A stretch of DNA of 24,982 nt, from the IMG/VR virus record IMGVR_UViG_3300037485_000279, positions 1 through 24,982 of that record; one strand, 5' to 3'. Positions 2,457 to 24,806 of the stretch are shown one piece after another (the stretch's first letter is position 1; the number at the start of each line of letters is the position of its first letter). A model generated the notes under the pieces. The model was not told where the DNA came from. It saw only the letters and a program-made list of their open reading frames with translations, and made no database searches. Origin of the DNA: a virus. The translations under genes were made by a program, and so were the position numbers.

Positions 2457-2474
2457 GTAAGCACTTACTAACGG
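2457..2474 (+). repeat. 18-bp intergenic repeat, copy 1
   Basis: GTAAGCACTTACTAACGG lies between terL and the head module and ends nine bases before the ATG at 2484. An identical copy at 24789-24806 ends nine bases before the tail fibre ATG. The first 12 bases are an inverted repeat (GTAAG, CA, CTTAC). The 3' part ACTAACGGAG loosely resembles the downstream half of T3/T7-type polymerase promoters and also leads into a Shine-Dalgarno GGAG. A promoter, operator or translational element is possible. Confidence 0.7.
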
Positions 2475-2483
2475 AGCATCGAA

Positions 2484-2702
2484 ATGGGTAAAGTCGTCAG
2501 TTCTATCTTTGGTGGCGCAAAAGCTCCGAAAGCTCCAGCTCCACCGCCGCCGCCTACCGATAACACTCAAGCCGTTAAAGACGCTGAAGCCGCACAACGC
2601 CAAAGGGCTGCTATTGGTGGACGTGCTTCGACAATGCTTACGGGCGGCGAAGGCGTAGAGGATGAAGCTGTCACTGCCAAGAAGAAGCTTCTAGGCTCGT
2701 GA
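2484..2702 (+). CDS. Small conserved phage protein before the portal gene
   Basis: The protein has 72 residues. An N-terminal segment rich in Ala, Lys and Pro contains a run of six prolines (about 19-24). It is followed by a charged helix and a GGRASTMLTGGEG stretch (about 45-57) ending in a basic tail. Small proteins with a Pro-rich start and an R/G-RAS-T-x-LTG motif are common in tailed phages next to portal or internal-protein genes, but I know no proven function. A Shine-Dalgarno GGAG lies at 2473-2476, seven bases before the ATG. It is the first gene after the 18-bp repeat, and its stop TGA overlaps the portal ATG by one base. Confidence 0.65.
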   Translation: MGKVVSSIFGGAKAPKAPAPPPPPTDNTQAVKDAEAAQRQRAAIGGRASTMLTGGEGVEDEAVTAKKKLLGS

Positions 2703-4324
2703 TGTATTCCAAGGACGAGAGAGTTAAGGACATTCTGCGAAGGGTGTCTTCTGCCCGTGGTGATCGCGGAAATTGGGAGTCTCATTGGACTGAGATCGCA
2801 GAACTCGTTCTTCCGTCTTACTCGGATATGTTCCAGTCGCAGACAAACTATCCTACGCCTGGACAAAAGAAAACAGATAAGCTTTTCGATGCCACGGCTC
2901 CGGGGGCTTTGACTCGTTTCGCTTCTGTTATGGAGTCTATTCTTACTCCACGACAACAGACTTGGCACAACATCAAGGCAACCGATCCTTATCTGATGAA
3001 GGACTACCAGACGAAACTCTGGTTTGAGGAAGCGAACAAAACATTATTCCGTTACCGTTATGGCCCAAAAGCCAACTACGCCAGTCAGCAACATGAGATT
3101 TATATGTCTCTTGGTGCTTTCGGAACAGGTTGTATATTCGTTGATGAACTCGCAGATCAACCTGGCGTTCGGTATCGAGCGATTCACCTAGCGGAGATAT
3201 TCTTCTCTGAAAACCATCAGGGAGTTATTGATACAGTCTATCGGGTCTTCAACATGAAGGGTCGGCAACTGCTTCAGAAGTTCGGAAAGAACGCGCCTGA
3301 AGACATATTGAAAGAGTATCAAAACGGACAGGATAAGGATTACGAAATCATCCATTGTGTTCGACCAAACAATGACCGTGATCCTCGCAGGATAGATTAC
3401 AAGTCAATGGCGTTCGAGTCATTGTACTGTTGTGCAAAACATCAAATGATTCTCGAAGAAGGTGGTTACAAGACGATGCCGTATATCGTCTCACGGTACA
3501 TCACGATTCCAGGAGAAACTTATGGTCGTTCTCCCGCAATGCAGGTACTTCCTGCAATCAAAACACTTAACGAACAAAAGAAAACCGTACTCAAGCAAGG
3601 GCATCGTGCCGTTGATCCGGTTCTGTTGGCTCATGATGACGGGGTTCTTGATTCTTTCTCGATGCGACCAGGCGCTATTAATTACGGTGGTGTTAGTGCC
3701 GATGGTCGTCAGCTAGTTCACGCTCTTCCTGTTGGGAATCTGAGTATCGCAAGAGACATGATGGAAGATGAACGGATGGCGATTAATGATGCCTTCCTTG
3801 TTTCTCTATTCCAGATTCTTGTCGAATCTCCAGCAATGACCGCTACGGAAGTCTTGGAACGCTCAAGAGAGAAGTCTTCATTGATTGCTCCGATCATGGG
3901 GCGTCAACAATCAGAAGCTTTAGGGCCAATGATTGAAAGAGAACTTGCCTTGTTGCTTACACAAGGCTTACTGCCTCCTCCTACGCCTGCTATGCAAGAG
4001 GCAGGAGCAGGGTACAAGATTGAATACGATTCTCCTTTGTCTCGGATGCAGAAAGCAGAAGCCGCTTCGGGTGGTCTTAGGATGTTCCAGTACGCCTCTG
4101 AAATTGCGGCCAATACGCAAGACCCTTCAAGTCTGGACTGGTTTAACGTCGATACCATGATTCCTGACTTGGCTGATGCGCAGGGCATGCCTGCCTCTTG
4201 GATGAACTCTCAAGAATCAGTGGATGCAAAGAGAGAAGGCCGTCAGCAACAAGCTGCACAACAGCAGATGCTTGAAGCGGCTCCAGCGATGGCAGGAATG
4301 ATTAAAGCCACAGGAACACGATGA
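2702..4324 (+). CDS. Portal protein (head-tail connector, T7 gp8 type)
   Basis: This protein forms the dodecameric ring at one capsid vertex through which TerL threads DNA and to which the tail attaches. The 540-residue length and sequence fit the podoviral head-tail connecting family. N-terminal RWESHW-like aromatic residues (GNWESHWTEIAEL, about 23-35) are followed by a stem/wing region and the hallmark YGRSPAMQVLPAIKTLN (about 274-290), then MTATEV (about 379-384), where Thr-Ala-Thr-Glu is typical. The tail end is Gln/Ala-rich. I take ATG at 2702, coupled to the previous stop as TGATG; GTG at 2699 would add one residue. It is followed by the Bbp19-like gene with an ATGA overlap. Confidence 0.95.
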   Translation: MYSKDERVKDILRRVSSARGDRGNWESHWTEIAELVLPSYSDMFQSQTNYPTPGQKKTDKLFDATAPGALTRFASVMESILTPRQQTWHNIKATDPYLMKDYQTKLWFEEANKTLFRYRYGPKANYASQQHEIYMSLGAFGTGCIFVDELADQPGVRYRAIHLAEIFFSENHQGVIDTVYRVFNMKGRQLLQKFGKNAPEDILKEYQNGQDKDYEIIHCVRPNNDRDPRRIDYKSMAFESLYCCAKHQMILEEGGYKTMPYIVSRYITIPGETYGRSPAMQVLPAIKTLNEQKKTVLKQGHRAVDPVLLAHDDGVLDSFSMRPGAINYGGVSADGRQLVHALPVGNLSIARDMMEDERMAINDAFLVSLFQILVESPAMTATEVLERSREKSSLIAPIMGRQQSEALGPMIERELALLLTQGLLPPPTPAMQEAGAGYKIEYDSPLSRMQKAEAASGGLRMFQYASEIAANTQDPSSLDWFNVDTMIPDLADAQGMPASWMNSQESVDAKREGRQQQAAQQQMLEAAPAMAGMIKATGTR

Positions 4325-4581
4325 ATCTAATTGAACGGGCAAGAGAGTTTCTACACCAACGTAGGAATTCTTACAAACGACTGTTCCACTTTGAAAACCG
4401 TGATGCTCAAGTTGTTTTAACAGACTTGGCTAAATTCTGCCGCGCTCACGAATCTACTTTTAATCCTGACGAACGAACTCACGCCTTGTTGGAGGGGCGT
4501 AAGGAAGTATGGCTTCGACTCCAACAACACCTCAATATGACCGAAGAAGAACTTTGGTTACTCTACTCACGTAAAGGATAA
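4321..4581 (+). CDS. Bbp19-like phage structural protein
   Basis: The protein has 86 residues and is all helical in appearance. It begins with AREFLHQRRNSYKRLF, then DLAKFCRAHESTFNPDERTHALLEGR split over residues about 36-60, and ends with HLNMTEEELWLLY. This layout (FCRA, D/ER-x-HALLEGRKEVW, HLNLS-EEL) matches the family named after Bbp19 of Bordetella phage BPP-1, always found beside portal genes. The molecular role is not established; an accessory head or assembly protein is likely. It overlaps the portal stop as ATGA and is four bases from the scaffold gene. Confidence 0.8.
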   Translation: MNLIERAREFLHQRRNSYKRLFHFENRDAQVVLTDLAKFCRAHESTFNPDERTHALLEGRKEVWLRLQQHLNMTEEELWLLYSRKG

Positions 4582-4585
4582 ACAA

Positions 4586-5428
4586 ATGGAAACTATTGCC
4601 TCCGCTGATGGCGGGAACGGCGCTGAAACTGGCGCTGCTGAGTCACAAGTGCCGGTTAATAGTTGGCATTCTGGTTTTGACCAAGAGACAGTCGGCTGGC
4701 TCGATGCGCGAGGGCTGACAAAACTTAATGAGAAAGAGGCTTTGCCGTCACTCGTCAAAGGGTTTAGAAACGCAGAGAAGTACATTGGTACGCCTGCGGA
4801 GAAGCTTCTTCGACTCCCTGATTGGGATAAAGCCGATAAGGTTGAGTTGGATCAGTTCTACGGAAAACTTGGCCGTCCGGCAGAAGCAAAGGACTACAAC
4901 ATTCAGGTTCCAGAAGGAACACCAAGAGACTTTGCTGATTGGGCGCAAGGAATCTTCCACGAAGCCGGATTGAGTCCTCGCCAAGCAAACGCGATTACAG
5001 AGAAGTGGAATGAATACGGCGGTTCTCTGATGGAGAGCCAATCCGCTCAACAACAACAAGTCACAAAAGATCAGGAAGCCGCACTTCGGCACGATTGGGG
5101 TAATGCTTATGATAAGCAACTCTCCATTGCCAAGAACGCAGCAGCGTCTATTGGACTCACGCCTGAAAAGGTTGATGCTTTACAGTCTGCGCTTGGCTAC
5201 GATGGCGTAATGAAGATGATGGCTGATATTGGCGGAAAGATCGGTGAAGCTGGTTTTGTTGGCGGTGACAGTGGCAATAACTTCAACGGAGTATTGACGC
5301 CAAGCCAAGCAGTTGCGCGACTTGCAAACCTTCAGTCTGACAAGGAATGGGTTGGTAAGTACATGGCTGGTAATATGGAAGCTAAGGCCGAAATGTCTCG
5401 TCTGATGAAGATGGCTTATCCTGATTAG
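4586..5428 (+). CDS. Capsid assembly scaffolding protein
   Basis: The 280-residue acidic, Gln- and Ala-rich, predominantly helical protein lies between portal and capsid genes, the standard place for a scaffold. Scaffolds line the procapsid interior and leave before or during packaging. The motif QFYGKLGRPAEAKDYNIQVP (about 88-107) is a hallmark of this family. A central long helix with QSAQQQQVTKDQEAALR (about 151-167) could be a coiled coil, and the C-terminus is a short helical segment with Lys and Met (EMSRLMKMAYPD), as expected for the shell-binding end. AAAGGATAAACAA precedes the ATG. No protease domain is fused to it and no separate protease gene is visible, so removal may not need cleavage. 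Confidence 0.88.
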   Translation: METIASADGGNGAETGAAESQVPVNSWHSGFDQETVGWLDARGLTKLNEKEALPSLVKGFRNAEKYIGTPAEKLLRLPDWDKADKVELDQFYGKLGRPAEAKDYNIQVPEGTPRDFADWAQGIFHEAGLSPRQANAITEKWNEYGGSLMESQSAQQQQVTKDQEAALRHDWGNAYDKQLSIAKNAAASIGLTPEKVDALQSALGYDGVMKMMADIGGKIGEAGFVGGDSGNNFNGVLTPSQAVARLANLQSDKEWVGKYMAGNMEAKAEMSRLMKMAYPD

Positions 5429-5429
5429 C

Positions 5430-5639
5430 ATGGAAAATAAAGAGATCATGCTTGAGTGTATGAAGTTGGGGTTAGCACTCACTTCGCCTACGGTTAGCAA
5501 CAGGCAAGAAGAAGTTGTAAAGTCTGCAAAAATGATTTACAGTGAAATTATTGCTGTTGATTTCAAGTCTTGCGAGTCGGACACGTTAGTAACTGAAGGC
5601 CGGAAGAAACCAGGCCCAAAGCCAAAGCCCCGAGATTAA
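5430..5639 (+). CDS. Small protein of unknown function with basic proline-rich tail
   Basis: The protein has 69 residues and begins one base after the scaffold stop. Residues 1-45 look helical (MENKEIMLECMKLG onward, moderately charged). The end, GRKKPGPKPKPRD, is an extended basic Pro-rich tail reminiscent of AT-hook-like DNA or nucleic-acid contacts, though without the exact GRP core. No clear ribosome site precedes the ATG, so coupling with the scaffold gene is likely. Its place between scaffold and capsid suggests a head assembly role. I do not recognise the family. Confidence 0.6.
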   Translation: MENKEIMLECMKLGLALTSPTVSNRQEEVVKSAKMIYSEIIAVDFKSCESDTLVTEGRKKPGPKPKPRD

Positions 5640-5669
5640 AGCAAGACTGTTTTAGAAGTAGATCGGCTC

Positions 5670-5741
5670 CTCCTAGAGGGTACGCCAAGGAATGTAGCCG
5701 CCTGAAAGGGCCACAAACTTTTGTCGTTAATTCTCTAGGAG
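5670..5741 (+). promoter_or_regulatory. Long-range inverted repeat covering the capsid ribosome-binding site
   Basis: CTCCTAGAG at 5670-5678 is the exact reverse complement of CTCTAGGAG at 5733-5741, and two flanking G-U pairs extend the stem to 11. The downstream arm contains AGGAG, the Shine-Dalgarno sequence of the capsid gene, six bases before its ATG. A smaller hairpin (ACAAACTTTTGT, 5713-5724) lies inside. The 108-base gap 5640-5747 holds no gene. In RNA the pairing would hide the ribosome site unless opened. It may instead be chance or a processing site. Confidence 0.45.
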
Positions 5742-5747
5742 ACTTTC

Positions 5748-6641
5748 ATGTCTGCAAATCTACCCACTCATTTCGTACAGCAGTACAGCACGAACATTCA
5801 ATTGCTGCTTCAAACCAAAGGCGGCAAATTCAGCCAGCATGTAATGCGCGGCACCCACCAAGGTAAAGCAGCATCGCCGGTCGATCAGTTCGGCGCTGTT
5901 GAAATGCAACCCGTTACTTCCCGCTTCGCTCCGATGGGCCGTGTTGATGCTGCCACGGATCGCCGTTGGGTTTATCCTTCGGACTTTGATCTGCCGCAGC
6001 AAATCGACTCGTTCGACAAGCTGAAGATGATTACCGATCCTTCGAGCATGTATGTTCAGAACGCTGTCAATGCTGCGCTTCGCCAGCAGGATCGCTTGAT
6101 TCTTGCTGCCTTTACTGGTACGGCAAAGACTGGCGAAACCGGCGCTACTTCCACCATCTTCACTGCGGCTAACGAAGTTGACGTAGCTGTTGGTGGCGCT
6201 AACTCGAAACTTAACGTTGCCAAAATCAAAGCCGTTAAGGAATTGATGGAAGCTAACGACGTTGATTTCGAGACTGAAGAAGTGTTCATCGGCATTACTG
6301 CTGCTGACCATGCTTCGCTTCTGAATGAAATCCAAGTGATTAGTTCTGACTTCAATAGCGGCGCACCGATCCTGCAACAAGGTCGTGTTGTTGAATTCCT
6401 TGGCTTCAAACTGATTCAATCGCAACTGGTTGAGACGGTTCTTGCTGGCACCAACGAGGTCACGTTGCCGGTATGGTGTAAGTCAGGCATGCATTGCGGC
6501 ATTTGGGATGAAATGAAAACGGACGTTTCGCAGCGTAAAGACCTGCAAGGCCTCCCGTGGCAAGTTTATCTCACCATGTCCGCTGGCGCGACTCGTCTTG
6601 AAGAAGACAAGGTCTACGCGATCGAATCATACCGCGCTTAA
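5748..6641 (+). CDS. Major capsid protein
   Basis: The 297-residue protein lies between scaffold and cement genes. Its sequence matches the podoviral capsid group that includes Bbp17 of BPP-1: an N-terminal arm THFVQQYSTNIQLLLQ, then RFAPMGRVDAATDRRWVYP (about 59-77) with the P-domain-like core, an FGFKLI-like strand (VEFLGFKLIQSQ) and GIWDEMKTDVSQRKDL near the C-terminus. An HK97 fold is expected from the family, not visible directly. No cleavable delta domain is apparent. TAGGAG gives a strong ribosome site, buried in an inverted repeat. The gene is clearly G+C-richer and uses more C-ending codons than its neighbours, as expected for a highly expressed gene. Confidence 0.92.
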   Translation: MSANLPTHFVQQYSTNIQLLLQTKGGKFSQHVMRGTHQGKAASPVDQFGAVEMQPVTSRFAPMGRVDAATDRRWVYPSDFDLPQQIDSFDKLKMITDPSSMYVQNAVNAALRQQDRLILAAFTGTAKTGETGATSTIFTAANEVDVAVGGANSKLNVAKIKAVKELMEANDVDFETEEVFIGITAADHASLLNEIQVISSDFNSGAPILQQGRVVEFLGFKLIQSQLVETVLAGTNEVTLPVWCKSGMHCGIWDEMKTDVSQRKDLQGLPWQVYLTMSAGATRLEEDKVYAIESYRA

Positions 6642-6657
6642 TTGAAAGGAATAAATC

Positions 6658-7173
6658 ATGGCTGTCGATCTTACTCTAAAATCCACCGCGATCACGAATC
6701 GTGAAGCAACTCCGCGAGTTCAGAACAATCCTGGTGCTGGCGCATCGGGAACTGTTCGCCAAGTTCAAGGTTACTTCGCTTCGGTGACTGCTTCGTTGTC
6801 CGATACTTCGGTTATCCGCATGGTTGAAGTTCCGGCCCATGCTACGGTGACTCGCGTTATCTTCGCTTCTGCTGCGCAAACCGCTGGCAACTTCAGTATT
6901 GGTGCTTATCGCACGAATTCTGACGGCGGCGCTGTTGTTGATATGGACTTCTTCGCTTCACGCATTGACTGCGCTTCTGCTGTTGCGCTGACTGACGTGA
7001 CGAACGAATCCACAACCAACACGCTTGCAAAGCAGAATCAACCGTTGTGGCAAGCCCTTGGTATGACTGAACCCGCCAAAGGCACGATGCTTGACATTGC
7101 CGCTACTGTTGATACTACGGCAGTAACGACTGGTACTGGTGCGATCACCCTCAAGGTTGAATACACCATCTAA
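6658..7173 (+). CDS. Capsid cement/decoration protein (Bbp16-like)
   Basis: The 171-residue protein is Thr-, Ala- and Val-rich with alternating hydrophobic residues, indicating a beta-sandwich. The pattern ALSDTSVIRMVEVPAHATV (about 45-65, here ASLSDTSVIRMVEVP) followed by GNFSIGAYRTNSDGG and a closing beta strand ITLKVEYTI matches the Bbp16 family, shown in BPP-1 to be the cement protein that clamps the capsid shell. It is directly downstream of the capsid gene with AAAGGAATAAATC as ribosome site, and is followed by a strong terminator, so the two are probably made together at high level. Confidence 0.85.
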   Translation: MAVDLTLKSTAITNREATPRVQNNPGAGASGTVRQVQGYFASVTASLSDTSVIRMVEVPAHATVTRVIFASAAQTAGNFSIGAYRTNSDGGAVVDMDFFASRIDCASAVALTDVTNESTTNTLAKQNQPLWQALGMTEPAKGTMLDIAATVDTTAVTTGTGAITLKVEYTI

Positions 7174-7177
7174 GCAA

Positions 7178-7206
7178 AAGGGGGGTGAAAGCCCCCCTTC
7201 TTCTAT
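7178..7206 (+). terminator. Rho-independent terminator after the cement gene
   Basis: AAGGGGGG (7178-7185) pairs perfectly with CCCCCCTT (7192-7199) around a TGAAAG loop, giving an eight-pair G-C-rich stem. The following CTTCTTCTAT is pyrimidine-rich but not a pure T-run, so termination is probably partial. It lies between the capsid/cement pair and the appendage block, where it would lower downstream expression. Confidence 0.85.
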
Positions 7207-8255: not shown

Positions 8256-8672
8256 ATGGCCGCATACGTCAAATACGAACTTGGCATCGAAAAGATGATG
8301 GAAGGCGGCAACGCTGGTTCTGATTCTTGGCGTTTGCTGCTATCTAACACCGCTCCGACTGTTGCCACGGACACCACGGCGGCGAGTATCACGGAGATTG
8401 CCAACGGTAACGGTTACACGACTGGAGGCGCTACGCTCACGGTTGCGACTTCCGCAGCGACGGCGGGCGTTTATAAGCTGACATTCAACACGATTCCAAC
8501 GTGGACGTCTAGCACGGGCAACATGGGGCCGTTCCGCTACGTGATCCTGTACAACCTGACGCAGACGCAAGTGATCGGTTATTGGGATTACGGCTCTGCA
8601 TTGACGTTGAACGGGGTCAACGGCGACACCTTCACGCCTTCGGTAGTTGCTGAAACCTTCTCGGTGACCTAA
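8256..8672 (+). CDS. Beta-rich phage structural protein
   Basis: The 138-residue protein follows the pattern of a widespread small virion protein: Trp-x-hydrophobic-LLSNTAPT, then ITEIANGNGYTTGG (about 45-58), a beta-sheet core, and PFRYVILYN followed by IGYWDYGSALTLNGVNGDTF. Such proteins sit in head or tail appendage clusters and are predicted beta sandwiches; the exact location in the virion is not known. Translation is coupled to the next gene through TAATG. From here to about 13 kb the DNA is generally richer in G+C than in the flanking tail and internal-protein genes. Confidence 0.6.
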   Translation: MAAYVKYELGIEKMMEGGNAGSDSWRLLLSNTAPTVATDTTAASITEIANGNGYTTGGATLTVATSAATAGVYKLTFNTIPTWTSSTGNMGPFRYVILYNLTQTQVIGYWDYGSALTLNGVNGDTFTPSVVAETFSVT

Positions 8673-8965
8673 TGGCTTCGGCCATTGGCACAGCGACGAT
8701 AGACTTCGGCGCGTTCCCAGGAACGTCTGAGGCGTCTGTCGCTGTGACCGGACAAGGAACGATCAGCGCAACGAGCAAGTGCGAAGCGTGGATCATGGGT
8801 GACGACACGAGCGGCGCACATACCGCAGCAGATCACAGATACGCACCGCTACTGATCGCCTTGACGTGTGGCACACCAACTGTAGCTACAGGCTTCACAA
8901 TTTACGGGCGCTGCCTTGACAAAATGCAAGGCACTTTCGCAATCCGTTGGGTATGGTCAGACTAA
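8672..8965 (+). CDS. Small conserved beta-rich virion protein
   Basis: The 97-residue protein begins TATIDFGAFPG, continues with EASVAVTGQGTISATSKCEAW and HTAADHRYAPLLIALTCG, and ends GTFAIRWVWSD. This is a familiar small phage family always near structural genes. The pattern of alternating Thr/Val/Ala strands and a conserved ADHRYA segment indicates a compact beta fold. No biochemical role is known to me. It is often found together with the kind of protein encoded just upstream, suggesting that the two act in the same appendage. Confidence 0.65.
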   Translation: MASAIGTATIDFGAFPGTSEASVAVTGQGTISATSKCEAWIMGDDTSGAHTAADHRYAPLLIALTCGTPTVATGFTIYGRCLDKMQGTFAIRWVWSD

Positions 8966-8974
8966 GGATAAATC

Positions 8975-10477
8975 ATGGCACTCGATACTAAACTCGTAGG
9001 TACTACTTCTGGCACAGGCGTAGAAGTCGCTGGAACGAATCAACTCAAGGTTATCCCGGAAGTCGATACCATCACAAGCCCCGAGAACGTAGGCGCTATC
9101 AAAGCGTTCCAAGAGAACGATGGTGGCTATATCACAGGCGCTTACGCGGTGGCTTCTGGTGAAGTGGATATTGACTATCGCCAGCGGGTAGCCCTTGACT
9201 TGCTGCTTGATGACGAGGTGTTCAACTACACCGCGCAGAACTTCGGCAAGCATGCGAACTTGCTGACGACGATGACCTCTGCTTGGGTAGCTGGACAGTT
9301 TGTCACCAACAACGCCAGTATCGTAACGACAACCACGGCTTGTGCGCTCAAGACCTATGCGACGTTCCCGAATAATGGAACGCAGACACTTTCTTATGAT
9401 GCTGAAATCGGGTTCTCCGCACAACCGGCCGCGAATACCTTTGTTGAGTTTGGCTTGGTTGGCCCCGCTACTGTGCAAGGTGCGGCCCCTACAGACGGTG
9501 TTTTCTTTCGGCTGAACTCAGCCGGATTGCAAGGCATCGCAAGTAACGCCGGTACTGAGACTTCCACAGGTGTATTCCCCTTGTCTGGTGGTACTGGTAC
9601 TTGGGCTTACACCAACAACAAGAAGTATCAATTCATTTGTTATGTTGGGGCTGTATATGCGGCCTTCTGGGTGAATGATGGAACAGGTGCTGTTTTACTT
9701 GGTACGATTCAGAAACCTGAATCACAGAATCGTATCTGCATGTCACAGGGTTTGATGGCTTGGTTCAACCATCGTATCACGGGCGGCGCAGCAGGTTCAG
9801 TATTCCAAGCGCAACTCGGCGCTTACTCGGTACGCCTTGGTGGCTCCAACATTACGACGACCAGCTCCACGCAAGGCAATCGCATCTTTGGTTCTTACCA
9901 AGGGGCAGCAGGTGGTACGCAAGGTTCTCTCGCTCGTATCGGTACAATTACTACAGGTAACGAAGCTAACGTAACGGCTGCGGTTCCAACCACAACGACT
10001 GCAGCGCTTGGCTCGGGTTTGGGTGGTACGTTCTGGGAAACCGTTTCACTTGCGGTGAATACTGACGGCATCATCATGAGCTATCAGGTTCCTGCTGGAA
10101 CAATTAACTTGGCTGGTAGGCGCTTGGTGTTGCGAGGTATGTATCTCGCCAGCTACGTGCAGACTGTAATTGTTGGTGGGCCATATGTTGCTGAGTGGTT
10201 CTTGGCGTTTGGGCATACAGCAGTATCTCTGGCTACTGCGGACGGCGCAGCAACCAAAGCCCCAAGGCGCGTTAATCTTCCGTTCAATCAGGTTGTAACG
10301 GCTGCACAAGCTGTGAGTACAGTGGTCGCACAGCAACAAACCTTCTGTGACTTCGGTGACGCGCCTATCTTCGTGAATCCGGGCGAATTCGTTCAGCTTT
10401 GTACGCGTCACATTGGCACAGTAGGTACCAGCGGTACGGTTGTTCATCGCGTAACCCCTATTTATGGATGGGAATAA
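8975..10477 (+). CDS. Large virion protein with lectin-like central domain
   Basis: The 500 residues fall into three parts. Residues 1-110 contain a conserved structural start (LDTKLVGTTSGTGVEV, then GYITGAYAVASGEVDIDYRQR). Residues about 130-290 look like a concanavalin/LamG-type beta sandwich (TLSYDAEIGFSAQP, TDGVFFRLNSAGLQG, QFICYVGAVYAAFWVNDGTG). Residues about 300-500 are a second beta-rich domain ending in a strand-rich C-terminus. Lectin-like sandwiches in virion proteins usually bind surface glycans, suggesting a capsid-displayed adhesion protein, though this is inferred. The central part (row 9601 has 23 G+C of 60) is poorer in G+C than the neighbouring genes, hinting at domain exchange. 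AAGGATAAATC precedes the ATG. Confidence 0.55.
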   Translation: MALDTKLVGTTSGTGVEVAGTNQLKVIPEVDTITSPENVGAIKAFQENDGGYITGAYAVASGEVDIDYRQRVALDLLLDDEVFNYTAQNFGKHANLLTTMTSAWVAGQFVTNNASIVTTTTACALKTYATFPNNGTQTLSYDAEIGFSAQPAANTFVEFGLVGPATVQGAAPTDGVFFRLNSAGLQGIASNAGTETSTGVFPLSGGTGTWAYTNNKKYQFICYVGAVYAAFWVNDGTGAVLLGTIQKPESQNRICMSQGLMAWFNHRITGGAAGSVFQAQLGAYSVRLGGSNITTTSSTQGNRIFGSYQGAAGGTQGSLARIGTITTGNEANVTAAVPTTTTAALGSGLGGTFWETVSLAVNTDGIIMSYQVPAGTINLAGRRLVLRGMYLASYVQTVIVGGPYVAEWFLAFGHTAVSLATADGAATKAPRRVNLPFNQVVTAAQAVSTVVAQQQTFCDFGDAPIFVNPGEFVQLCTRHIGTVGTSGTVVHRVTPIYGWE

Positions 10478-11556: not shown

Positions 11557-12954
11557 ATGAGCCTTATTGCGCCCAACGTCCTGAGACAACAGCCGCAATA
11601 TGCGGCGCAGATTGACTGGGGGAACCCACTTTCTGCGGGGCTGGTCAGCTTGCTCTGGGTGCATCCGAACGGGATCGCCTATGATCTACTCGCCCCTTCG
11701 ATTGTCTATACAAAAACGAACGTTAGCCCCCTCGGAACGACGCAGGGGTACGGGTCTCAAGTCACCACCGCAGGGGCTAACGGTATTACTTCGGGTAGAA
11801 ACCTAGCACTGAACTGTAAGGTTGCGTCCTCCCCGATGGCCTACATGCTTTTTGGCGAAATTGGAACTATGGGCGCGTCCAATACGGTTGCTGGGTGCGG
11901 CGGTGGGTACCAGTTGTGGTCACTGTACGGAATCCGCAGCCGAAGGGCGTCGGTTTACGCAGGCGGTTCGCAAAGGAGCGTTGATGTAGGGACATGGGCT
12001 ACAGGGATTGGCGTCTTTGGCGTGGTCGCTGATGGGGGTAATGTCATTGGGTATGAGAATGGCAAAAGCTTTGGCTCAACGGCAGGCTCAGGGGCGATCA
12101 CATACGACAACACGTATGGGCATGCGCATATTTTCGGCGGGGGTGGTGGTGACATCACGTCTTGCACAGGCACTGCTTTCTATTCCGCGACGTGGAATCG
12201 CGCCCTAACTCCAAGCGAAGCAAAAAGCCTAAGCGACAACCCGTGGCAAATCTTCAAAGCCCCGAGTCGCAAGATATTCCTGCCGTCGCTGGGCGGGGCT
12301 GCGTCATATTCACTGTCTCTCGCAGCCGGAACCTACGCCTACGCGGGAACCGCGGCTAACCTGAATACAACCCGCGCACTCTCGCTGGCCGCAGGAAGCT
12401 ATGCTTACGCCGGAGCCAATGCTTCAGTTCCCGCAGGCCGAAGACTTCCACTTGCGTCAGGAACCTACGGTTATACCGGATCAACCGCACTACTCAAAGT
12501 CGCCAGAAGCCTAACGCTTGACGTTGGTACGTATGCTTACGCTGGCACTGCGGCTACTCTAACCTACACGCCGGGAACCTCTGCGATTGGCAGACCTGTC
12601 AGTGACGCCTTGGCCGGCGCATGGACGCCGAGTGCAGGGGGCGATCTCTATGCGATGGTGGATGAAGTCTCGCCAAGCGATGCAGATTTCATTAGTACCG
12701 CATCAGGCTCTACGTGTGAGATGGTGTTTAACCCGACAACCTTCCCCGGAACAGCCACACAAACGATTTCATACAGGGCTTCAAGTACCGTTGGAAGCAC
12801 CCTGACTGTGACGCTATTCCAAGGCGCGACGACTATCGCCTCGTGGAGCCACGCGCTTACTGGAACGATCACGCTCTACACCCAAACATTGACTGCCCCT
12901 GAGATAGCCACTATTGTTGCCGGCGCGATCAGCGTCAGATTGACGAGCAGCTAA
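11557..12954 (+). CDS. Fibre-like protein: LamG-type domain, four 22-residue repeats, C-terminal beta domain
   Basis: Residues about 20-230 resemble a concanavalin/LamG sandwich, ending with the typical AFYSATWNRALTPSEAKSL followed by NPWQIFKAP, a signature of many phage lectin-like proteins. Residues 251-336 are four tandem 22-residue repeats of the form L-x-LAAG-x-Y-x-Y-x-G-x-x-A-x-L-x-x-x-R-x, with their Gly at 258, 280, 302 and 324. Residues about 345-465 form a further beta domain (DALAGAWTPSAGG onward). The design of adhesive head, stalk repeats and distal beta domain suggests a surface fibre. The gene is richer in G+C than most of the window (37 of 60 bases in row 12241). The TAA overlaps the next ATG. 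Confidence 0.65.
   Translation: MSLIAPNVLRQQPQYAAQIDWGNPLSAGLVSLLWVHPNGIAYDLLAPSIVYTKTNVSPLGTTQGYGSQVTTAGANGITSGRNLALNCKVASSPMAYMLFGEIGTMGASNTVAGCGGGYQLWSLYGIRSRRASVYAGGSQRSVDVGTWATGIGVFGVVADGGNVIGYENGKSFGSTAGSGAITYDNTYGHAHIFGGGGGDITSCTGTAFYSATWNRALTPSEAKSLSDNPWQIFKAPSRKIFLPSLGGAASYSLSLAAGTYAYAGTAANLNTTRALSLAAGSYAYAGANASVPAGRRLPLASGTYGYTGSTALLKVARSLTLDVGTYAYAGTAATLTYTPGTSAIGRPVSDALAGAWTPSAGGDLYAMVDEVSPSDADFISTASGSTCEMVFNPTTFPGTATQTISYRASSTVGSTLTVTLFQGATTIASWSHALTGTITLYTQTLTAPEIATIVAGAISVRLTSS
12307..12564 (+). repeat. 22-codon tandem repeats (4 copies)
   Basis: The repeat period is exactly 66 bases and the copies are divergent, so purifying selection acts on the protein pattern rather than on DNA identity. 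Each unit carries LAAG followed by Y-x-Y-x-G and A-x-L. The same unit recurs in the next gene at 13050-13451. Confidence 0.85.
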
Positions 12955-13697
12955 TGAGCTTACTTCTCGCACTGACAGGCACAACCTCGATAGACGCCAA
13001 AGTAACGTGGGTTGAGTTCAACACGGCTGCGGGCGGCGGTGCGGTTAATTACACACTGACTTGCGCAGCCGGAGCCTACGCTTATACCGGAACAGCGGCG
13101 AACCTGAAAACCGCAAGGGCGCTATCCTTGGCAGCAGGCGCTTACAACTACGCAGGTGTAGCGTCCAACCTGAAGACTTCGCGGTTCGTCTCTCTCGCAG
13201 CAGGCAGCTACGTCTATGCCGGTCAAGCAGCGATCATCGGCGCAGGAAGAGTTCTTCCGCTTTCCGCTGGCGCGTACAACTACACAGGCACTTCAGCAAA
13301 CCTCAAGACGGATAGGCATCTTCAACTCGCAGCAGGGGTTTATAATTACTCTGGCGAAGACGCAACGCTTACCTACACAGCAGGTAGCGCAACCGTAAAT
13401 TACACGTTAGACCTCGCAGCAGGAACTTATTCATACACTGGACTACCAGCAAAAGCGATATTGGAGGTTGATATGATTGTCGGAGCTACGCCAGCGGAAG
13501 TCTGGGATGAAGTTTTAGAATCAGGATATTCTGCGCGGCAACTTATGCGAATCATGACATCGGTACTCGACGGAAAAGTCTCCGGCGCTGGAACTGGAAC
13601 AGAATCTTTCCGTGATCTGGCAGACACAAAGAACCGCGTTGTCAGCACAGTAGATTCAAATGGAAACAGAACATCGGTGGTGATAGATGCCTCTTAA
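12954..13697 (+). CDS. Repeat-containing virion protein, partner of the upstream fibre gene
   Basis: After a short start, residues 33-166 contain six copies of the same LAAG-x-Y-x-Y-x-G repeat found in the previous protein. The first five are spaced exactly 22 residues apart (Gly at 40, 62, 84, 106, 128) and the sixth is 29 further on. The last 70 residues form a different domain: TPAEVWDEVLESGYSARQLM, SVLDGKVSGAGTG, FRDLADTKNR and VDSNGNRTSV. I recognise this end as a common C-terminal module of phage repeat proteins, without a known function. It has no lectin-like head, so it may interact with the upstream fibre through the shared repeat. A 43-codon gene overlaps its last 11 bases. Confidence 0.65.
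   Translation: MSLLLALTGTTSIDAKVTWVEFNTAAGGGAVNYTLTCAAGAYAYTGTAANLKTARALSLAAGAYNYAGVASNLKTSRFVSLAAGSYVYAGQAAIIGAGRVLPLSAGAYNYTGTSANLKTDRHLQLAAGVYNYSGEDATLTYTAGSATVNYTLDLAAGTYSYTGLPAKAILEVDMIVGATPAEVWDEVLESGYSARQLMRIMTSVLDGKVSGAGTGTESFRDLADTKNRVVSTVDSNGNRTSVVIDAS
13050..13451 (+). repeat. 22-codon tandem repeats (6 copies)
   Basis: Five units have a 66-base period and a sixth follows after an insertion of seven codons. They are homologous in pattern to the array at 12307-12564 in the neighbouring gene, which implies intragenic expansion plus sharing between adjacent genes. Confidence 0.85.
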
Positions 13698-17751: not shown

Positions 17752-17753
17752 TC

Positions 17754-18314: not shown

Positions 18315-20950
18315 TGGCTATCGTTAGAGAATACGACCGTCAAATCGGTACGCCTTCTGCTGACTTCGGGCGCAGGGCTAACGCTCAAGACATGGGGTTC
18401 GCTCAAGGTATTAGCGATCTTGCTCATGGTATTGGTGATGCTTCAATGATCCTAAAAAGGCACGAAGAAGATCGGGAGATTTCCGATGCCCAACTTCGTG
18501 TGGCCAACCTAGAGAACGAACTTGATACTAGGCAGAAAGAGATTCAATCCACAGCACAACCTGGGATAGCAACTGCTGACCAAGTTCGCACAGATACGAC
18601 TGAGGCTTACACAAGCCTTAGTGGGCAGTACAAGACTCCTAAAGCGCAGCAGTACGTAAAGCTTCATGGAGCAAACGCAACAGGCAACAGGGTAAAAGCG
18701 TCAAGAGCATTCGACATGGATTTGTACGTTCATGACCAAAGCGCAAAACGTGAAGCGTTGTTTGATGATTCAGCAAAGAGCGCGTATGCAGACCCTTCGT
18801 TGTTTGAGCGTAGTGCAGAAAGACTGACGTTCGACTACAAGAACAAGATGGGCGTGTTCAGCACTTCTGGCGACCCTCGCGTTGATCTTGCAATGGGGGA
18901 ACGCTTCAAGATTGGTATGACAAAGATGGCTTGGTCTGCTGCTGTAGGAAGTGTTGATAAAGACCCTGTGATACGTGGTCAAGTTGCTTCAATGGCTCCT
19001 AGCGGAGCTTCTGCTTTGATTGCTTCTGTGATGAAAACAGAAGGCGGGTTTGTTGCTAACGACAATAACAAAGGCGCTACAAATCGAGGTATCAATGGGC
19101 TTGCTAACGGATTAACCGAAGAACAAACGAAGAACTTAACCAAAGAAGGCGCAGAGGCAATCTACAAAAAGAACTATTGGGATAAGTTCGGTATCGAACA
19201 ACTCAATCCAACTGTTCAGGCTGTTGTCTTTGACGGTGTTGTAAATCATCGCGTTGATTTTGCCAAGCAACTTGTTGAGGCTGCAAAGGGCGGCGCAACT
19301 GCGGCGCAACTCGGACAAATGCGGAAAGATGAATACAACCGTCTTGCTGAGAATCCAGACAACCAAAAGTATCTGAAATCGTGGATGGGGCGAGTCGATA
19401 AGACTGTTGGAGAAGTCGCGCCAGTAGCTGATTACGCTCCACCAAAAGAACTTACCGGCGCTCCGTGGTGGCCGCATCTTACAGTCGATCAACAGCACAA
19501 CCTTACAAAGCAAGCGCAGGAAAGACAGCGTAAAGAAAACGTTATTGCTGACCATGCGCTAAAGCAAACCATTGAAGATCAGAAGTCTGAGTTTGCTTCG
19601 TTAGGGAAGGTTTCTAGTAACGAACTTCCAGCAACTGCATTTAGAGACGCTGTTCAATATGCCGATTACAAGAACTTCTACCAGACTTCAAAGACTGTAG
19701 AAGCTGTAATAGATCAGCCCGTATCAACACAGCAATTGATGGTTGAGTCAATGAAGCCGCAGCAAGGACTTGAACCAGGGTTGTATCGACTACAGAACGA
19801 TAGGTATCAGCAAGCAGTGAATATGATCAATAGCGCGAACAATAAGCGCGAAGAAGATCAGGTTGGTGTGGCGATAATCAGAGGGTTTTCTGCACAGAAT
19901 CCAATTGTACCTATACAGGACTTCTCCGCTGACAAAATCGCTGAAGCTATGGCCGTTCGTTATCCGCAGTCAGAAGCTGTCAGAGAGGCTGGTTCTCTCA
20001 GAACGCACAAGCCATTGGGGAACAACGAAGCCGCTAATTTGGCGCAATACTTCAAGCAACTTCCCCCCGATCAAAAGTCTGATTACATCAGCAAGCTTGC
20101 TAAAGCAGGAACTGCACAGCAGTTTAACGATTTGGCAGAGCAAGTATGGAAAGACGAAAACGCTGTGCTTGGCGTGGCTAAATTAGCCGTTATTCCAGAG
20201 AGCAGATCGCAGAATGGATCAACGCCGCAGCGTACATCGCAGATGATGATGGCTGGTTATGAAATTCTTTCTCTCAAAGAGAAGGGCGATGGAGCAAAAG
20301 ATAACAAAGGATTTTCTGGAATCCTTCCAAACGCAGAGAGTATCAGAGTTGCTGTTGGTACTCATTTGGCAGGACAGAAGCTTAGTGAAGACGTTGTTCG
20401 TCGCATGAGCGATGCCGTTAGAGCGCACTACGTTGGATCAATGGTTAGCGGTGGTGTATCTGGTTCGCTTGAGATAACCGGAGACAAAGCAACGAAAGAG
20501 AACAAAGCGGCTTTGGTTAATTCAATCAAGACAGTTATTGGCGAACCTGCTTCTGTAGGATCAAGCAAGGTGCTAAAGCCTTGGGGAATGTCTAACGTTG
20601 AATTCACTGAGCTTGTAAAAGCAGAAGGTGAGAAACAGGGATACGGTAGTAAGTATTACGGGCTTCAGCCTATCGACGGCGCTAATCAGAAGTATGCAAT
20701 TCTCGTTGATGGAATGGTTCAGTATCGTGATGGCAAGGTTGTTGAAATTGACATGAACGAGGCAAAGAAAACCATTGCATCGAAGGAATCGTATAACCGA
20801 GAAATGAAACGCAACGAAGAATTCAGCAAAGAGATGCGAACTCAAAGACAGGCTTCTGAAAGGCTTGCTGTTGATGTAATGAAACCAAGCCCTGTGACTT
20901 CGCAGGACATTTATGCACCTGTTTATTCCGCACTTGGGATTAACAAATGA
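18314..20950 (+). CDS. Internal virion protein with GH108-type muramidase domain
   Basis: The 878 residues start from ATG 18314, which overlaps the previous stop and follows GGAGAG at 18301; a TTG at 18299 is less likely. Residues about 228-365 resemble glycoside hydrolase family 108 with its peptidoglycan-binding part: MKTEGGFVANDNNKGATNRGIN (about 241-262, Glu243 the expected catalytic acid), YKKNYWDKF and VVFDGVVNHRVDFAKQL. The rest is long, helical and polar, with a Lys/Glu-rich end. T7 uses an SLT domain in gp16 for the same purpose, opening peptidoglycan during DNA ejection. The domain differs here in family and in its host protein. The next gene overlaps by ATGA. Confidence 0.88.
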   Translation: MAIVREYDRQIGTPSADFGRRANAQDMGFAQGISDLAHGIGDASMILKRHEEDREISDAQLRVANLENELDTRQKEIQSTAQPGIATADQVRTDTTEAYTSLSGQYKTPKAQQYVKLHGANATGNRVKASRAFDMDLYVHDQSAKREALFDDSAKSAYADPSLFERSAERLTFDYKNKMGVFSTSGDPRVDLAMGERFKIGMTKMAWSAAVGSVDKDPVIRGQVASMAPSGASALIASVMKTEGGFVANDNNKGATNRGINGLANGLTEEQTKNLTKEGAEAIYKKNYWDKFGIEQLNPTVQAVVFDGVVNHRVDFAKQLVEAAKGGATAAQLGQMRKDEYNRLAENPDNQKYLKSWMGRVDKTVGEVAPVADYAPPKELTGAPWWPHLTVDQQHNLTKQAQERQRKENVIADHALKQTIEDQKSEFASLGKVSSNELPATAFRDAVQYADYKNFYQTSKTVEAVIDQPVSTQQLMVESMKPQQGLEPGLYRLQNDRYQQAVNMINSANNKREEDQVGVAIIRGFSAQNPIVPIQDFSADKIAEAMAVRYPQSEAVREAGSLRTHKPLGNNEAANLAQYFKQLPPDQKSDYISKLAKAGTAQQFNDLAEQVWKDENAVLGVAKLAVIPESRSQNGSTPQRTSQMMMAGYEILSLKEKGDGAKDNKGFSGILPNAESIRVAVGTHLAGQKLSEDVVRRMSDAVRAHYVGSMVSGGVSGSLEITGDKATKENKAALVNSIKTVIGEPASVGSSKVLKPWGMSNVEFTELVKAEGEKQGYGSKYYGLQPIDGANQKYAILVDGMVQYRDGKVVEIDMNEAKKTIASKESYNREMKRNEEFSKEMRTQRQASERLAVDVMKPSPVTSQDIYAPVYSALGINK

Positions 20951-22272
20951 TTGAGTTACAGACCGACGAAGAAGGGCAAAGATCACTCTCTTATGCTGGA
21001 TTTGATCAATTGCTAAAGAGTGATGCTGGATTCTTTGACGGTGCTATTTCCGCTCCTTTCGTTGGCATCAAACACGCATGGGATGTTGGCGCAGCGGCTT
21101 TGTCTGATGCGGCTATGCCGACCATTGAAGCCGTCGCGCCTGAGAGTATCAGCGGTTGGTTCAAAGATCAGCAGTCTAAAGCATACAAGTCGCTGTATGA
21201 CACTAGACCAGACCCGTCAAACATGGGAACCGTTGCACAGATCGGACACTCGTTAGGATCGGTTCTAACGATGGGGTTAGCAGGAGGCTTAATCGCTGGA
21301 CCTACTGGCGCGGCGGCGGCGATTGGATCAGGCTCTTATTACGACAAGTTTAAGGAGCTTAGAGGCCAAGGAGTTGATGAAGACACAGCAATGAAAGTAT
21401 CGGGAGTTACCGGCGCAGTAATGGGTATTGGCGCTGCGCTTCCTGCTTTCATGGGCAAGGCTATAACAACACAGGTTCTATCTGGTATTGGAATGAACGT
21501 TCCTTTGGGAGTAGCAGAGCGTGGAGCAACGGCAAACATCCTAGAAGGCGCTGGTTACAAAGAGATGGCATCGCACTATAAGATGCTTGACTACACAGCC
21601 ATAGCGACTGACGCTGTGCTTGGAGCAGCCTTTCCTTTTGGCGCAAGAGCATTAAGAAGATCAGAGAAACCGCCGTTGTCAGAGATAGACGCTGCGCAAG
21701 ACGCTAACCGTGGATTGGTTGAGAGAACAAGAAATCCAGCGACTCCGGGAACGCTTGAGGCCGCAGACAATATTCGCCTTGCAGAAGATTCTTTCGCCAA
21801 GCAAATGATCGAGGAAGGTAAGTCGATTGAGGATATTGAAGTTCCTCGCGGATTATATGACGAGTCTGTTGAAAATCCATCTCTAACAAGAGAGGTCGTT
21901 GAGACGACGAATTCGTTTAATGACCTAGCTGCTAAAGAGGGATACGCTCCATTGAATAAAATGGAGCAAGCAGTTAAGTCTATGGACGATGCCTATACTT
22001 CCGTAAAAGAAACTGCTGATGCAATCGAGGCAAAGCCGGAAGGCGATATTGTCGCAAAACTCGCTGAAGCAAAGGAAGGCGCTGAAGTATTTACAACAGA
22101 TAGAGCCAATAGAATTGCTGACGAGAACTCAGGAATGACTGTTGCTGACGAAAGCGGTAATTTTGTAAGCGCAAAAGAAATGCTTAACAAAGCAGAAGCT
22201 GAGTTTCAGAACGATATTAAATCAGCGAAGCTTTCAGAAGTCGCTATCAAATGTGCATTGGGGGTTGGTTAA
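20947..22272 (+). CDS. Internal virion / ejection protein with hydrophobic segments
   Basis: The 441-residue protein has an amphipathic start and a central hydrophobic, Gly/Ala-rich region: about 103-128 (GSVLTMGLAGGLIAGPTGAA within it), 151-172 (SGVTGAVMGIGAALPAFMG) and 214-232. These resemble membrane-inserting hairpins of ejected proteins. The second half (about 240-440) is acidic and helical, ending in AIKCALGVG, an ending seen in large phage internal proteins. It lies between the muramidase-bearing and the largest internal protein, the position of a translocation-channel component. Assignment to a T7 counterpart is not clear. Confidence 0.65.
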   Translation: MIELQTDEEGQRSLSYAGFDQLLKSDAGFFDGAISAPFVGIKHAWDVGAAALSDAAMPTIEAVAPESISGWFKDQQSKAYKSLYDTRPDPSNMGTVAQIGHSLGSVLTMGLAGGLIAGPTGAAAAIGSGSYYDKFKELRGQGVDEDTAMKVSGVTGAVMGIGAALPAFMGKAITTQVLSGIGMNVPLGVAERGATANILEGAGYKEMASHYKMLDYTAIATDAVLGAAFPFGARALRRSEKPPLSEIDAAQDANRGLVERTRNPATPGTLEAADNIRLAEDSFAKQMIEEGKSIEDIEVPRGLYDESVENPSLTREVVETTNSFNDLAAKEGYAPLNKMEQAVKSMDDAYTSVKETADAIEAKPEGDIVAKLAEAKEGAEVFTTDRANRIADENSGMTVADESGNFVSAKEMLNKAEAEFQNDIKSAKLSEVAIKCALGVG

Positions 22273-24768
22273 ATGAGGCCAGAGTGTATTGCTGCTGTTC
22301 AAAAAGCCGCTGAAGCTATCGGGAAGAAACTGACTGTCGGTGATATTCGAGACATTGACACGAAGATTGCTCAAGCCAGAGTCCAACTTGCCCGTCAGGA
22401 CATTACTGCATACAGGTCTATGACCCGCGACGAACAGATCATAGCGGCGGGAAAGTCTGTTGCAGATCAAGCCTTACATGATGCGATCAAAAAGAAGCAA
22501 AGAGCCGATCTTACTGTTATCAAGAAATCAGAGAGGGAAGCTGTGCTAGGAAGGATGATGGCCGATGGAATAGACCGGCTTGAAGCTTTGCGTAGATTTA
22601 CTGCAACTGTTTCTGACGGAAAAGGAAAGGCCGTTTCTTATGAGTCTTACGCAGGAGGCTTGGAGCGTGAATACCTTCGCAAGCTAACTGACTTTACGAA
22701 GTTCATGGAAGAATCCTCGTTCGCTGGCTTTGTAACAAAGAAGCAGAACATGAACGATCTTGAGATGGAGATGTTCGGACAGGACAGCGGCAACGCTTCT
22801 GCAAAGAAGGCATGGAAGAATCTTGAAGCGGTTCGTAAAGAACAGATGGATCATTTCAACCGTCTCGGAGGTGACATTGCTCCGTTGGCAAACTACCGTA
22901 ACGGACAAGCCCTGAACGGCTTCCTTGTCCTGAAACGTGGTGGATCAGGAAAAGACAGAGGCAAGACGTTTGTTGATGACTACATGCAATGGGTTGATAG
23001 AAGCATGTACGTAAAACCAAGCGGCGATGCAATGAACGATGTTGAATTAAGAGAGTTCCTTAACGCTTCATACGTTACACACGTTACCGATGGCGCAAAC
23101 AAACCTCCAGGAGAAGGCGGCGTTGGTTCTGCGGCTAATCGAATGAAAGCCCATAGGCAGATTCACTATAAATCCCCTGAAGCCTATCGAGCAGCAATGG
23201 AAAAGTACGGTGCTGGAAACTCATTTGAGCAAGCAAGAATGGGTATTGAAAGCATGGCAGGAGATATTGCACTCGTTGATAAGTTTGGCCCGAATGCCAT
23301 ACATGAGTTCAACAAGGAATATTCAGACGCAGTAACCGCTACGAATGGGCGAACAGACAATCTGCTTCAATCTGCATTCCAAAGAATGAGCGGCCAGATC
23401 AGCCAAGAAAGTGTCACAGTTTCTCACTACGTTGGGGAAATTAAAGCAGCAATGGTTGCTTCACGACTAGGTTCGATGCTGTTCTCGCAGATTGCAGACC
23501 TTGGAACAATGAACGCAGCAGCAAGAGCAATGAATATCCCAAAGACAGAACTCGCTGCTTGGATCAAGAACGTTTCAACGGATGGGGGTTTGCGATCAAC
23601 ACTGAGGATTCACGGCCTTGGGATTGAGAGCGCACTGAACACAATCACAAGATTGTCTGATGGCATTTCAAACACCGGAATGTTCGGCAAGTTAGCCAGT
23701 GCTATTCCTACGGTACAAGGCGCACACCTATGGACTAAATCGCTACGTCAGGCGTTCGGCGCGATGATGGAAGCAAAGATAGGAGACATGGCTACCAAGT
23801 ACGACTCAATGGCGAAGCTACCTGAGACTGACCGGAAGATATTTGAAGCCATTGGAATCAACGATACGGATTGGGCTATCTATCGCTTGGCAAAGCCTTT
23901 CGATTACAAAGGCAGCAAGTTAATGAACGCAGAGGCTATCGAGAATATTCCAATAGCAGAGATACGAAAAATGGCAGGCGTTAGGTCAAACGCAGATGCC
24001 GAAATAATTCGCCAAGATGCCGCTATCAAGTTCGTTTCTCTTGTTGCAGAGCAATCAGAACAGGCAATCTTGCAGCCTGGGGCATTAAGCCAAGCAACGA
24101 TGCAAGGAAGTGCGGCTAGAGGTTCGGTTGCTGGAGAACTTACTTCGTTGATGACTCAATTCAAGTCTTTCCCTATGGCGTTCTTCCGTCAAACATTGAT
24201 GGAGAGAGCCAACTTCCAAGCCGCAGGTTATAACCCAATGATGTTCAGGGCGAACGTATTGATAGCAACCTCGATGCTTGGGGCAATGGGTGTTCTGTTG
24301 AACGAACTTGCTTCCGGTAAAGACCTTAGAGACTTGGATACGCCAGAAAAGTCTCTAAAACTCGCAAGAGAAGGCTTCTTAAAAGGCGGCGGTCTAGGCG
24401 TGTTCAACGAAATTATCGAAGCTGGATTTGGTTCTGTTGAAAGCCCTTGGCAATCTGGAACCAAGCTTCTAGGGCCAGCAATAGGGCATACCGTTGGCAC
24501 TGTTATACCTACGCTTGCACACGGTCTAAATTATGCTGCGTCTGAATTGTCTGGCGAGCCTGACGAGAAGGCATTAAAGAACTTCACCAAGAATGCCTAC
24601 AACTCAATCAAAGGAATTACTCCAGGTCAAAACTTGTGGTTTGCAAAAGGAATCCTTCATAACGTATTGCTTGATGGGTTTCAAGAAGCCGCGAATCCTG
24701 GATACAAAGAACGGGCAAAAGAACGAGCCGCTAAACAAGGTCAAGAATATTGGCTAGGCTATCAGTAA
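22273..24768 (+). CDS. Large internal virion protein (probable DNA-ejection component)
   Basis: The 831-residue protein is mostly helical. N-terminal residues 1-10 with Cys (MRPECIAAVQKAAEAIGKKL) are typical of large podoviral internal proteins. The C-terminal third is well conserved in such proteins: AGELTSLMTQFKSFPMAFFR (about 617-636), a hydrophobic stretch at about 661-677 (NVLIATSMLGAMGVLLNEL), KDLRDLDTPEKS, and near the end ITPGQNLWFAKGILHNVLLD with a basic Arg/Lys/Ala tail. No SLT or lysozyme motif is visible, so the enzymatic role is probably carried by the 878-residue protein. The last gene before a second 18-bp repeat, it is preceded by GGGGG as ribosome site. Confidence 0.8.
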   Translation: MRPECIAAVQKAAEAIGKKLTVGDIRDIDTKIAQARVQLARQDITAYRSMTRDEQIIAAGKSVADQALHDAIKKKQRADLTVIKKSEREAVLGRMMADGIDRLEALRRFTATVSDGKGKAVSYESYAGGLEREYLRKLTDFTKFMEESSFAGFVTKKQNMNDLEMEMFGQDSGNASAKKAWKNLEAVRKEQMDHFNRLGGDIAPLANYRNGQALNGFLVLKRGGSGKDRGKTFVDDYMQWVDRSMYVKPSGDAMNDVELREFLNASYVTHVTDGANKPPGEGGVGSAANRMKAHRQIHYKSPEAYRAAMEKYGAGNSFEQARMGIESMAGDIALVDKFGPNAIHEFNKEYSDAVTATNGRTDNLLQSAFQRMSGQISQESVTVSHYVGEIKAAMVASRLGSMLFSQIADLGTMNAAARAMNIPKTELAAWIKNVSTDGGLRSTLRIHGLGIESALNTITRLSDGISNTGMFGKLASAIPTVQGAHLWTKSLRQAFGAMMEAKIGDMATKYDSMAKLPETDRKIFEAIGINDTDWAIYRLAKPFDYKGSKLMNAEAIENIPIAEIRKMAGVRSNADAEIIRQDAAIKFVSLVAEQSEQAILQPGALSQATMQGSAARGSVAGELTSLMTQFKSFPMAFFRQTLMERANFQAAGYNPMMFRANVLIATSMLGAMGVLLNELASGKDLRDLDTPEKSLKLAREGFLKGGGLGVFNEIIEAGFGSVESPWQSGTKLLGPAIGHTVGTVIPTLAHGLNYAASELSGEPDEKALKNFTKNAYNSIKGITPGQNLWFAKGILHNVLLDGFQEAANPGYKERAKERAAKQGQEYWLGYQ

Positions 24769-24788
24769 TTTGATACCATACATAAGCA

Positions 24789-24806
24789 GTAAGCACTTAC
24801 TAACGG
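24789..24806 (+). repeat. 18-bp intergenic repeat, copy 2
   Basis: Identical to 2457-2474, including the GTAAG-CA-CTTAC inverted repeat, and again ends nine bases before an ATG. It lies between the last internal virion gene and the tail fibre/spike gene. The upstream bases differ from copy 1 apart from short similarities such as AT(A/C)CATA. No strong sigma70 hexamer pair is visible here. Confidence 0.7.

Follow-up and report, generated by a model that had tools for sequence, protein, structure and literature searches.

The nucleoid-occlusion factor SlmA is a dimer of the TetR family, and it occupies its sites as a dimer of dimers. In Escherichia coli it binds a 12-bp palindrome, GTGAGTACTCAC, and its binding sites (SBS) are found mostly in coding regions (PMC3116907). 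Binding to these sites activates SlmA (PMC4726725), and the protein can double as a transcription factor (PMC5519180). When SlmA, at a modest level, is moved onto sites carried by a multicopy plasmid in E. coli, Z-ring formation is blocked (PMC4117426). Similarly, a single copy of the binding site of Noc placed on a multicopy plasmid leads to a division defect (PMC4726725). The literature searched did not describe a phage with SlmA sites. Here we describe an enriched 12-bp palindrome, conserved at homologous places and with compensating changes in its arms, the full set of which is carried by only three related phages.

The DNA analysed (24,982 nucleotides, hereafter the window) is the whole of the IMG/VR record IMGVR_UViG_3300037485_000279, which represents a partial virus genome. 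Profile hits and gene order give the succession terminase, phrog_831, head-tail adaptor/portal, Bbp19-like protein and major head protein, then tail proteins, internal virion proteins and fibre. Such features place the phage, as judged from sequence, with the podoviruses of the BPP-1/BcepC6B type, and BcepC6B is syntenic with it. The hosts of isolated relatives include beta- and gammaproteobacteria, among others. The terminase is 90% identical to that of the window in contig L003 and 83% in L004, and contig 3300047095_000089 (L061/L058) is another close relative. L003 and contig 3300047095_000089 come from one metagenome, and their ends overlap exactly over 127 bp; this fits their being adjacent pieces of one assembly, which would represent about 36.1 kb of one phage (the relative). 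Extension of this genome by its end sequence yielded no additional contig. The early part of the relative carries genes for a Sak annealing protein, an O-like initiator, a DnaB-like helicase and a resolvase, and looks like that of phages using the host polymerase. One internal virion protein is of 831 aa in the window (22273–24768) and of 1206 aa in the relative (L058 9980–13600), apparently owing to a long charged helical insertion in the latter. An adjacent gene pair of the window (11557–13697) contains about seven imperfect repeats, many at 66-nt spacing, which encode variants of LAAGTYAYAGTAA.

The preliminary description of this DNA reported an 18-bp repeat, GTAAGCACTTACTAACGG, ending nine bases before a start codon and following a stop region at each of two places. 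Exactly two matches are indeed present in the window, at 2457–2474 (copy 1) and 24789–24806 (copy 2), both on the + strand, and the window contains no further copy at three or fewer mismatches. Shuffled sequences predict 0.01 occurrences against the two observed. Copy 1 occupies part of the 35 nt that follow the terminase gene (stop at 2448) and is separated by nine bases (2475–2483, + strand) from the ATG at 2484. Copy 2 lies within the 48-nt gap after the stop at 24768, with the nine bases 24807–24815 (+ strand) separating it from the ATG at 24816. The gene array is tightly packed: only five gaps reach 35 nt or more, and the repeat is present in two of them. At the proposed head-module boundary, the first gene 3' of copy 1 encodes a 72-aa phrog_831 protein (2484–2702, + strand); the portal gene (2699–4324) is next, and the copy does precede the head genes. 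The gene 3' of copy 2 is that of the tail fibre (24816–24982, + strand), which continues past the record end.

The inverted repeat noticed earlier is also present within the 18-mer. It reads GTAAG-CA-CTTAC and forms a palindromic core at 2457–2468 and 24789–24800. As previously stated, the 3' half leads into the ribosome site: the terminal CGG(A/G)G is a Shine–Dalgarno (SD) sequence, with an SD-like GGAG straddling 2473–2476 in copy 1 and GGGG straddling 24805–24808 in copy 2. The 18-mer thus consists of a 12-bp palindrome, GTNAG-YR-CTNAC, followed by a spacer and an SD sequence. The exact 18-mer has no match elsewhere in IMG/VR, the repeat gave no match in an Rfam search, a BLAST search of a phage collection with the motif returned only chance-level matches, and scans of genome collections did not find a related prophage.

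In the relative the element occupies both homologous positions, one on each of its two contigs: GTGAGCACTCACTATCGG upstream of the phrog_831 gene (L003, 10685) and GTGAGCACTCACTAACGG upstream of the fibre gene (contig 3300047095_000089 at 18814, L058 13621). In L004 it is present at the first of these positions (GTGAGCACTCACTTACGG, 1976). Absence from the same two positions in close relatives had been named as an argument against function; its presence at both of them in a close relative therefore favours function. The motif is conserved at 15/18 and 16/18 positions, while fourfold-degenerate sites are 34–44% identical between these phages. Within the palindrome of these conserved copies, only positions 3 and 10 change, and they change together, from A..T to G..C: both window copies carry the A..T arm variant and the three other conserved copies carry G..C.

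A search for GTNAG-NN-CTNAC, with the centre left free, was extended to about 67 kb of the window phage and its relatives (four records). It found 11 sites against 0.08–0.3 expected (Markov order 1–4; one Markov mean was 0.2), a number in which sites at homologous places are not independent and in which five of the 11 are those from which the core pattern was derived; the other six are still above expectation, three of them being a homologous third site and three specific to one phage. Codon shuffles of the window genes give 0.15 sites. When 256 palindromic arm patterns were ranked, GTNAG/CTNAC came top with 11 sites, the next best having two, and the reversed pattern had none in the four records. 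The sites start at 2457, 5471 and 24789 in the window, at 1860 and 10685 in L003, at 341, 1405 and 18814 in contig 3300047095_000089, and at 766, 1976 and 4991 in L004, so that the window has three, the relative five over its 36 kb and the third phage (L004) three over its 5.7 kb. Among the remaining, unselected relatives the count is mostly zero. Eight of the 11 centres are CA, two TG and one TA; dropping the YR requirement left the same 11 sites, so that every centre is of this type even though YR was not asked for. The 22 half-sites read GT(G11,T6,A5,C0)AG, and the palindrome is often flanked by A...T.

The third copy in the window, GTTAG-CA-CTCAC (5471–5482, + strand), lies inside an ORF (5430–5639) upstream of the capsid gene and lacks the SD part. 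The 32-nt block around it (5454–5485, + strand) is identical in the relative, and the sole difference in L004 is a centre of TG in place of CA. The centre is thereby replaced by its own reverse complement with the arms fixed, as expected of a dimer site on DNA. Taken together, the preliminary description was right that the element at the two boundaries is real and selected, but what carries the information is the 12-bp palindrome, which is found beyond these two boundaries and has a nucleoid-occlusion site as its closest known counterpart; the third, degenerate copy had been missed. This palindrome is very probably the binding site of a dimeric DNA-binding protein, as far as can be predicted from the sequences compared. 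Next to the ORF carrying the third copy, the gap before the capsid gene (window 5640–5747) is conserved in the three phages, with blocks including AAAGGG and TAGGAG; it is possibly a structured capsid leader.

The preliminary description had also pointed to a likeness between the 3' half of the repeat and T3/T7-type promoters, and a promoter for a T7-type single-subunit phage RNA polymerase, with a start at the GG of the repeat, had to be considered. It shares with T7, T3 and SP6 promoters the core ACTYACTA..GG and the position in a compact gap, and over positions −10 to +2 the agreement with the T7 consensus is 11/12 in L003, 10/12 at the fibre site of the relative and 9/12 at the others. The likeness stops there: the full 23-bp T7/T3/SP6/K11 consensus is matched at 10–15/23 at the five sites, nowhere above background, and equal scores are reached at between 11 and about 5,000 places of this DNA, depending on the consensus and the site. 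No single-subunit RNA polymerase was found among the window ORFs checked, nor was PF00940 found in the approximately 36 kb of the relative or the 5.7 kb of L004, a soft result since the model matched no control genome and the genome is unclosed. To our knowledge, conserved symmetric arms are no feature of T7-type promoters; neither the matched changes in the two arms nor the lack of GG in the third copy agrees with one, and the relative's early region, with its annealing protein, initiator, helicase and resolvase genes, looks to be of the host-polymerase type. With an unexceptional consensus match and no polymerase found in the partial genomes searched, we rejected the T7/T3/SP6/K11 promoter as a most improbable explanation. 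A scan of part of the phage ORFs, from a genome still unclosed, gave no Pfam hit to a sigma factor. Control of translation of both genes, by an RNA hairpin or a protein-binding RNA upstream of the SD sequence, is very improbable too, even though two sites stand immediately upstream of an SD sequence and their arms could form a 4-bp stem. Folding energies of −0.5 to −4 kcal/mol are no better than those of shuffles (native-site z-scores −0.57 to +1.69). In RNA, a 2-nt loop would keep the inner G..C of the two arms from pairing, and the third copy is not near a start codon. The RNA hairpin was accordingly rejected, its folds matching the shuffle level. What stands of the earlier suggestion of translational control is the adjoining SD sequence, which the third copy is without. 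The other earlier suggestion, an operator for a phage regulator, is supported as to the kind of element, a palindromic, dispersed and selected protein-binding site, the reader of which may be a phage or a host protein.

Among candidate readers of the palindrome, host SlmA is tentatively the leading one, at a likelihood clearly short of even; if the palindrome is granted to be the site of a dimeric protein, the sequence comparison brings SlmA close to an even chance. All 11 phage sites agree with GTGAGTACTCAC, an E. coli consensus, at 9–11 of 12 positions. The commonest phage half-site, GTGAG, is equal to the half-site of the SlmA consensus. As with SBS, the number of copies per replicon (3, 2, 3 and 3 in the four records) is beyond chance, and no TetR-type protein is encoded in these phage records. 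Many transcription-factor palindromes exist, and a chance look-alike is possible, at a rough estimate with a small probability. The 400 kb of the E. coli K-12 chromosome surrounding oriC contain no match to the strict pattern GTNAGNNCTNAC. Since E. coli SlmA sites are looser than those of the phages, this absence is a weak test and the strict form does not define SBS; two E. coli SlmA sites, known from primers, are without the inner G..C (PMC4117426). The centre is CA rather than TA in all three window sites, and the equal distance of two sites from their start codons would sooner be expected of an operator in gene regulation than of a division decoy. We keep SlmA at a tentative level because the likeness was recognised only after the motif had been found and because the strict form is absent near the K-12 oriC. 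Thus, SlmA stands barely ahead of a phage-encoded regulator.

The latter would be a dimeric repressor or late regulator with dispersed operators in a stoperator-like layout, and it is itself a serious possibility that falls short of an even chance. Such a protein would cover a sigma-70-type late start at copies 1 and 2 and block elongation at the inner sites. In the three phages the best sigma-70-like hexamers end 2, 0 and 1 nt before copy 1, and for copy 2 the distance is 9 nt in both phages compared; the predicted start would accordingly fall within the palindrome or slightly 5' of it. These hexamers, which are predictions only, are TTGACT-17-TATCCT in the window (2426–2454, + strand, ending 2 nt before copy 1), TTGACT-17-TAGGAT in L003 and TTGATT-17-TAGTAT in L004, and, for copy 2, the weak TTGGCT-18-TACCAT in the window (24750–24779, + strand) and TTGGCT-18-TAATAT at the corresponding position of the relative. 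The predictions are weak (8–9/12), however, and the −35 hexamers fall within coding ends. The regulator could be a product of the winged-helix genes that separate the small terminase gene from the large one, or be encoded in the unsequenced part of the genome. On the + strand of the window, the terminase gene is closely preceded by two genes for small winged-helix proteins, one RepL/MarR-like (253–615) and one RepL-like (612–908), and L003 has such a gene at 8609–9007; a fold search gave weak matches to DNA-binding domains of the ArsR/MarR/CRP type and did not thereby identify the reader. Within a genome the two sites do not differ in their arm variant, which is A..T for the window and G..C for the relative; co-evolution of site and reader would have this result. 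On the other side, the full-core site is absent from candidate early control regions of L003, a winged-helix ORF is absent from the 417 bp upstream of the L004 terminase, and several of the palindromes are located inside genes. Another host DNA-binding protein, be it a regulator of the TetR/MarR type or an organiser of the chromosome besides SlmA, is improbable: the enrichment and the symmetry name no reader, but no better published match emerged from a limited literature search.

Two further elements were noticed near the winged-helix genes. A 37-nt non-coding element, AGGGAGGACTTACCG(T/C)CAAATTTTTTTATT (window 18–53, L003 8399–8435), shows 94.6% identity between phages that share only about 75% in their coding DNA; a terminator preceding these genes is one possibility, a packaging or regulatory site another. 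A perfect palindrome, CAACACGTGTTG (window 58–69), lies near the predicted promoter of the winged-helix gene and was not seen in the corresponding stretch of L003.

The presence of SlmA sites on these phages would have consequences for the host. SlmA bound to phage sites would be switched on as an FtsZ antagonist. With several sites per genome and many copies of a replicating phage, it would be drawn off the nucleoid, and division of the host would be held back during infection, no phage-encoded inhibitor protein being needed. At copies 1 and 2, the protein would sit on, or just downstream of, the predicted late-gene start points, and expression of the portal/head and fibre genes could be delayed or tuned. 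Palindromes that are SlmA sites, acting through the division block we infer, give the best single explanation of the data, at somewhat under an even chance. If SlmA does bind, a division block is rather more probable than a neutral or a purely transcriptional effect. It is unlikely, on the other hand, that the whole scheme holds, in which the conserved set of SlmA sites, non-coding and in part embedded in coding DNA, brings about a division block without any phage protein, while a pair of them also serves as operators timing the portal/head and fibre genes. Phage lambda inhibits host division by means of a protein, Kil. With SlmA as the reader, these phages would control host division through binding sites in their own DNA and not through an inhibitor protein. 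With a phage protein as the reader, the sites would constitute a small dispersed system of palindromic operators in a BPP-1-like podovirus and would give a handle on a late regulator.

Degenerate scans with 15–16 fixed bases recovered the true relatives together with unrelated matches at about the number expected by chance. Look-alikes just before an ATG in the ‘MPLG’ gene family (L069, L076, L084 and L085) and in the L065 family were not counted, as their symmetry is in another register and each genome has a single copy. In the MPLG family, which belongs to unrelated phages, GTNAG-YR-CTNACTGACGGAG stands seven bases before the gene after the portal (L069 4356–4375, L076 1330 on the minus strand, L084 152–171 and L085 9222–9241), and this element may be a hairpin, GTCAG-N6-CTGAC, or due to chance. 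In many contigs of the L065–L082 group (e.g. L080), a perfect palindrome, AGTTAGTG-AG-CACTAACT, precedes a 111-aa gene and looks like a TetR-type operator.

The phages share with BPP-1 and BcepC6B the order terminase, small gene, portal, capsid, tail tube, internal virion proteins and fibre, as well as the Bbp19-like protein. Copies of the palindrome are absent from BcepC6B, in which a visually suggestive repeat at the two corresponding boundaries was not significant and had a third copy inside a gene; a group-wide property was therefore rejected. Like the late promoters of phiEco32-like phages (7-11), the sites include short common elements upstream of late genes, but those of 7-11 (GTAAtg-16-aCTA or a single tAATGTAtA) are read by a phage sigma factor and are not palindromic (PMC8948821). 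Like the stoperators of cluster A mycobacteriophages (L5), they are repeated, dispersed protein sites found in short intergenic gaps and at promoters. The L5 stoperators are more than 20 asymmetric 13-mers, bound by a monomer and dependent on orientation (PMC9283540), whereas the phage sites are few and, being palindromic, have neither this asymmetry nor a single orientation. The Noc sites of Bacillus subtilis are likewise palindromes of the nucleoid-occlusion type, but they are of 14 bp, bind a ParB-type protein and differ in sequence and phylum. The phage sites depart from SBS in being on a phage genome, in having an inner G..C stricter than in E. coli and in abutting an SD sequence at two copies. 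With the SBS of E. coli and V. cholerae they have in common a 12-bp palindrome with GTGAG/CTCAC arms, a YR centre and several dispersed copies (PMC3116907, PMC5519180), and as E. coli SBS are mostly in coding regions, so several of the phage sites are found inside genes.
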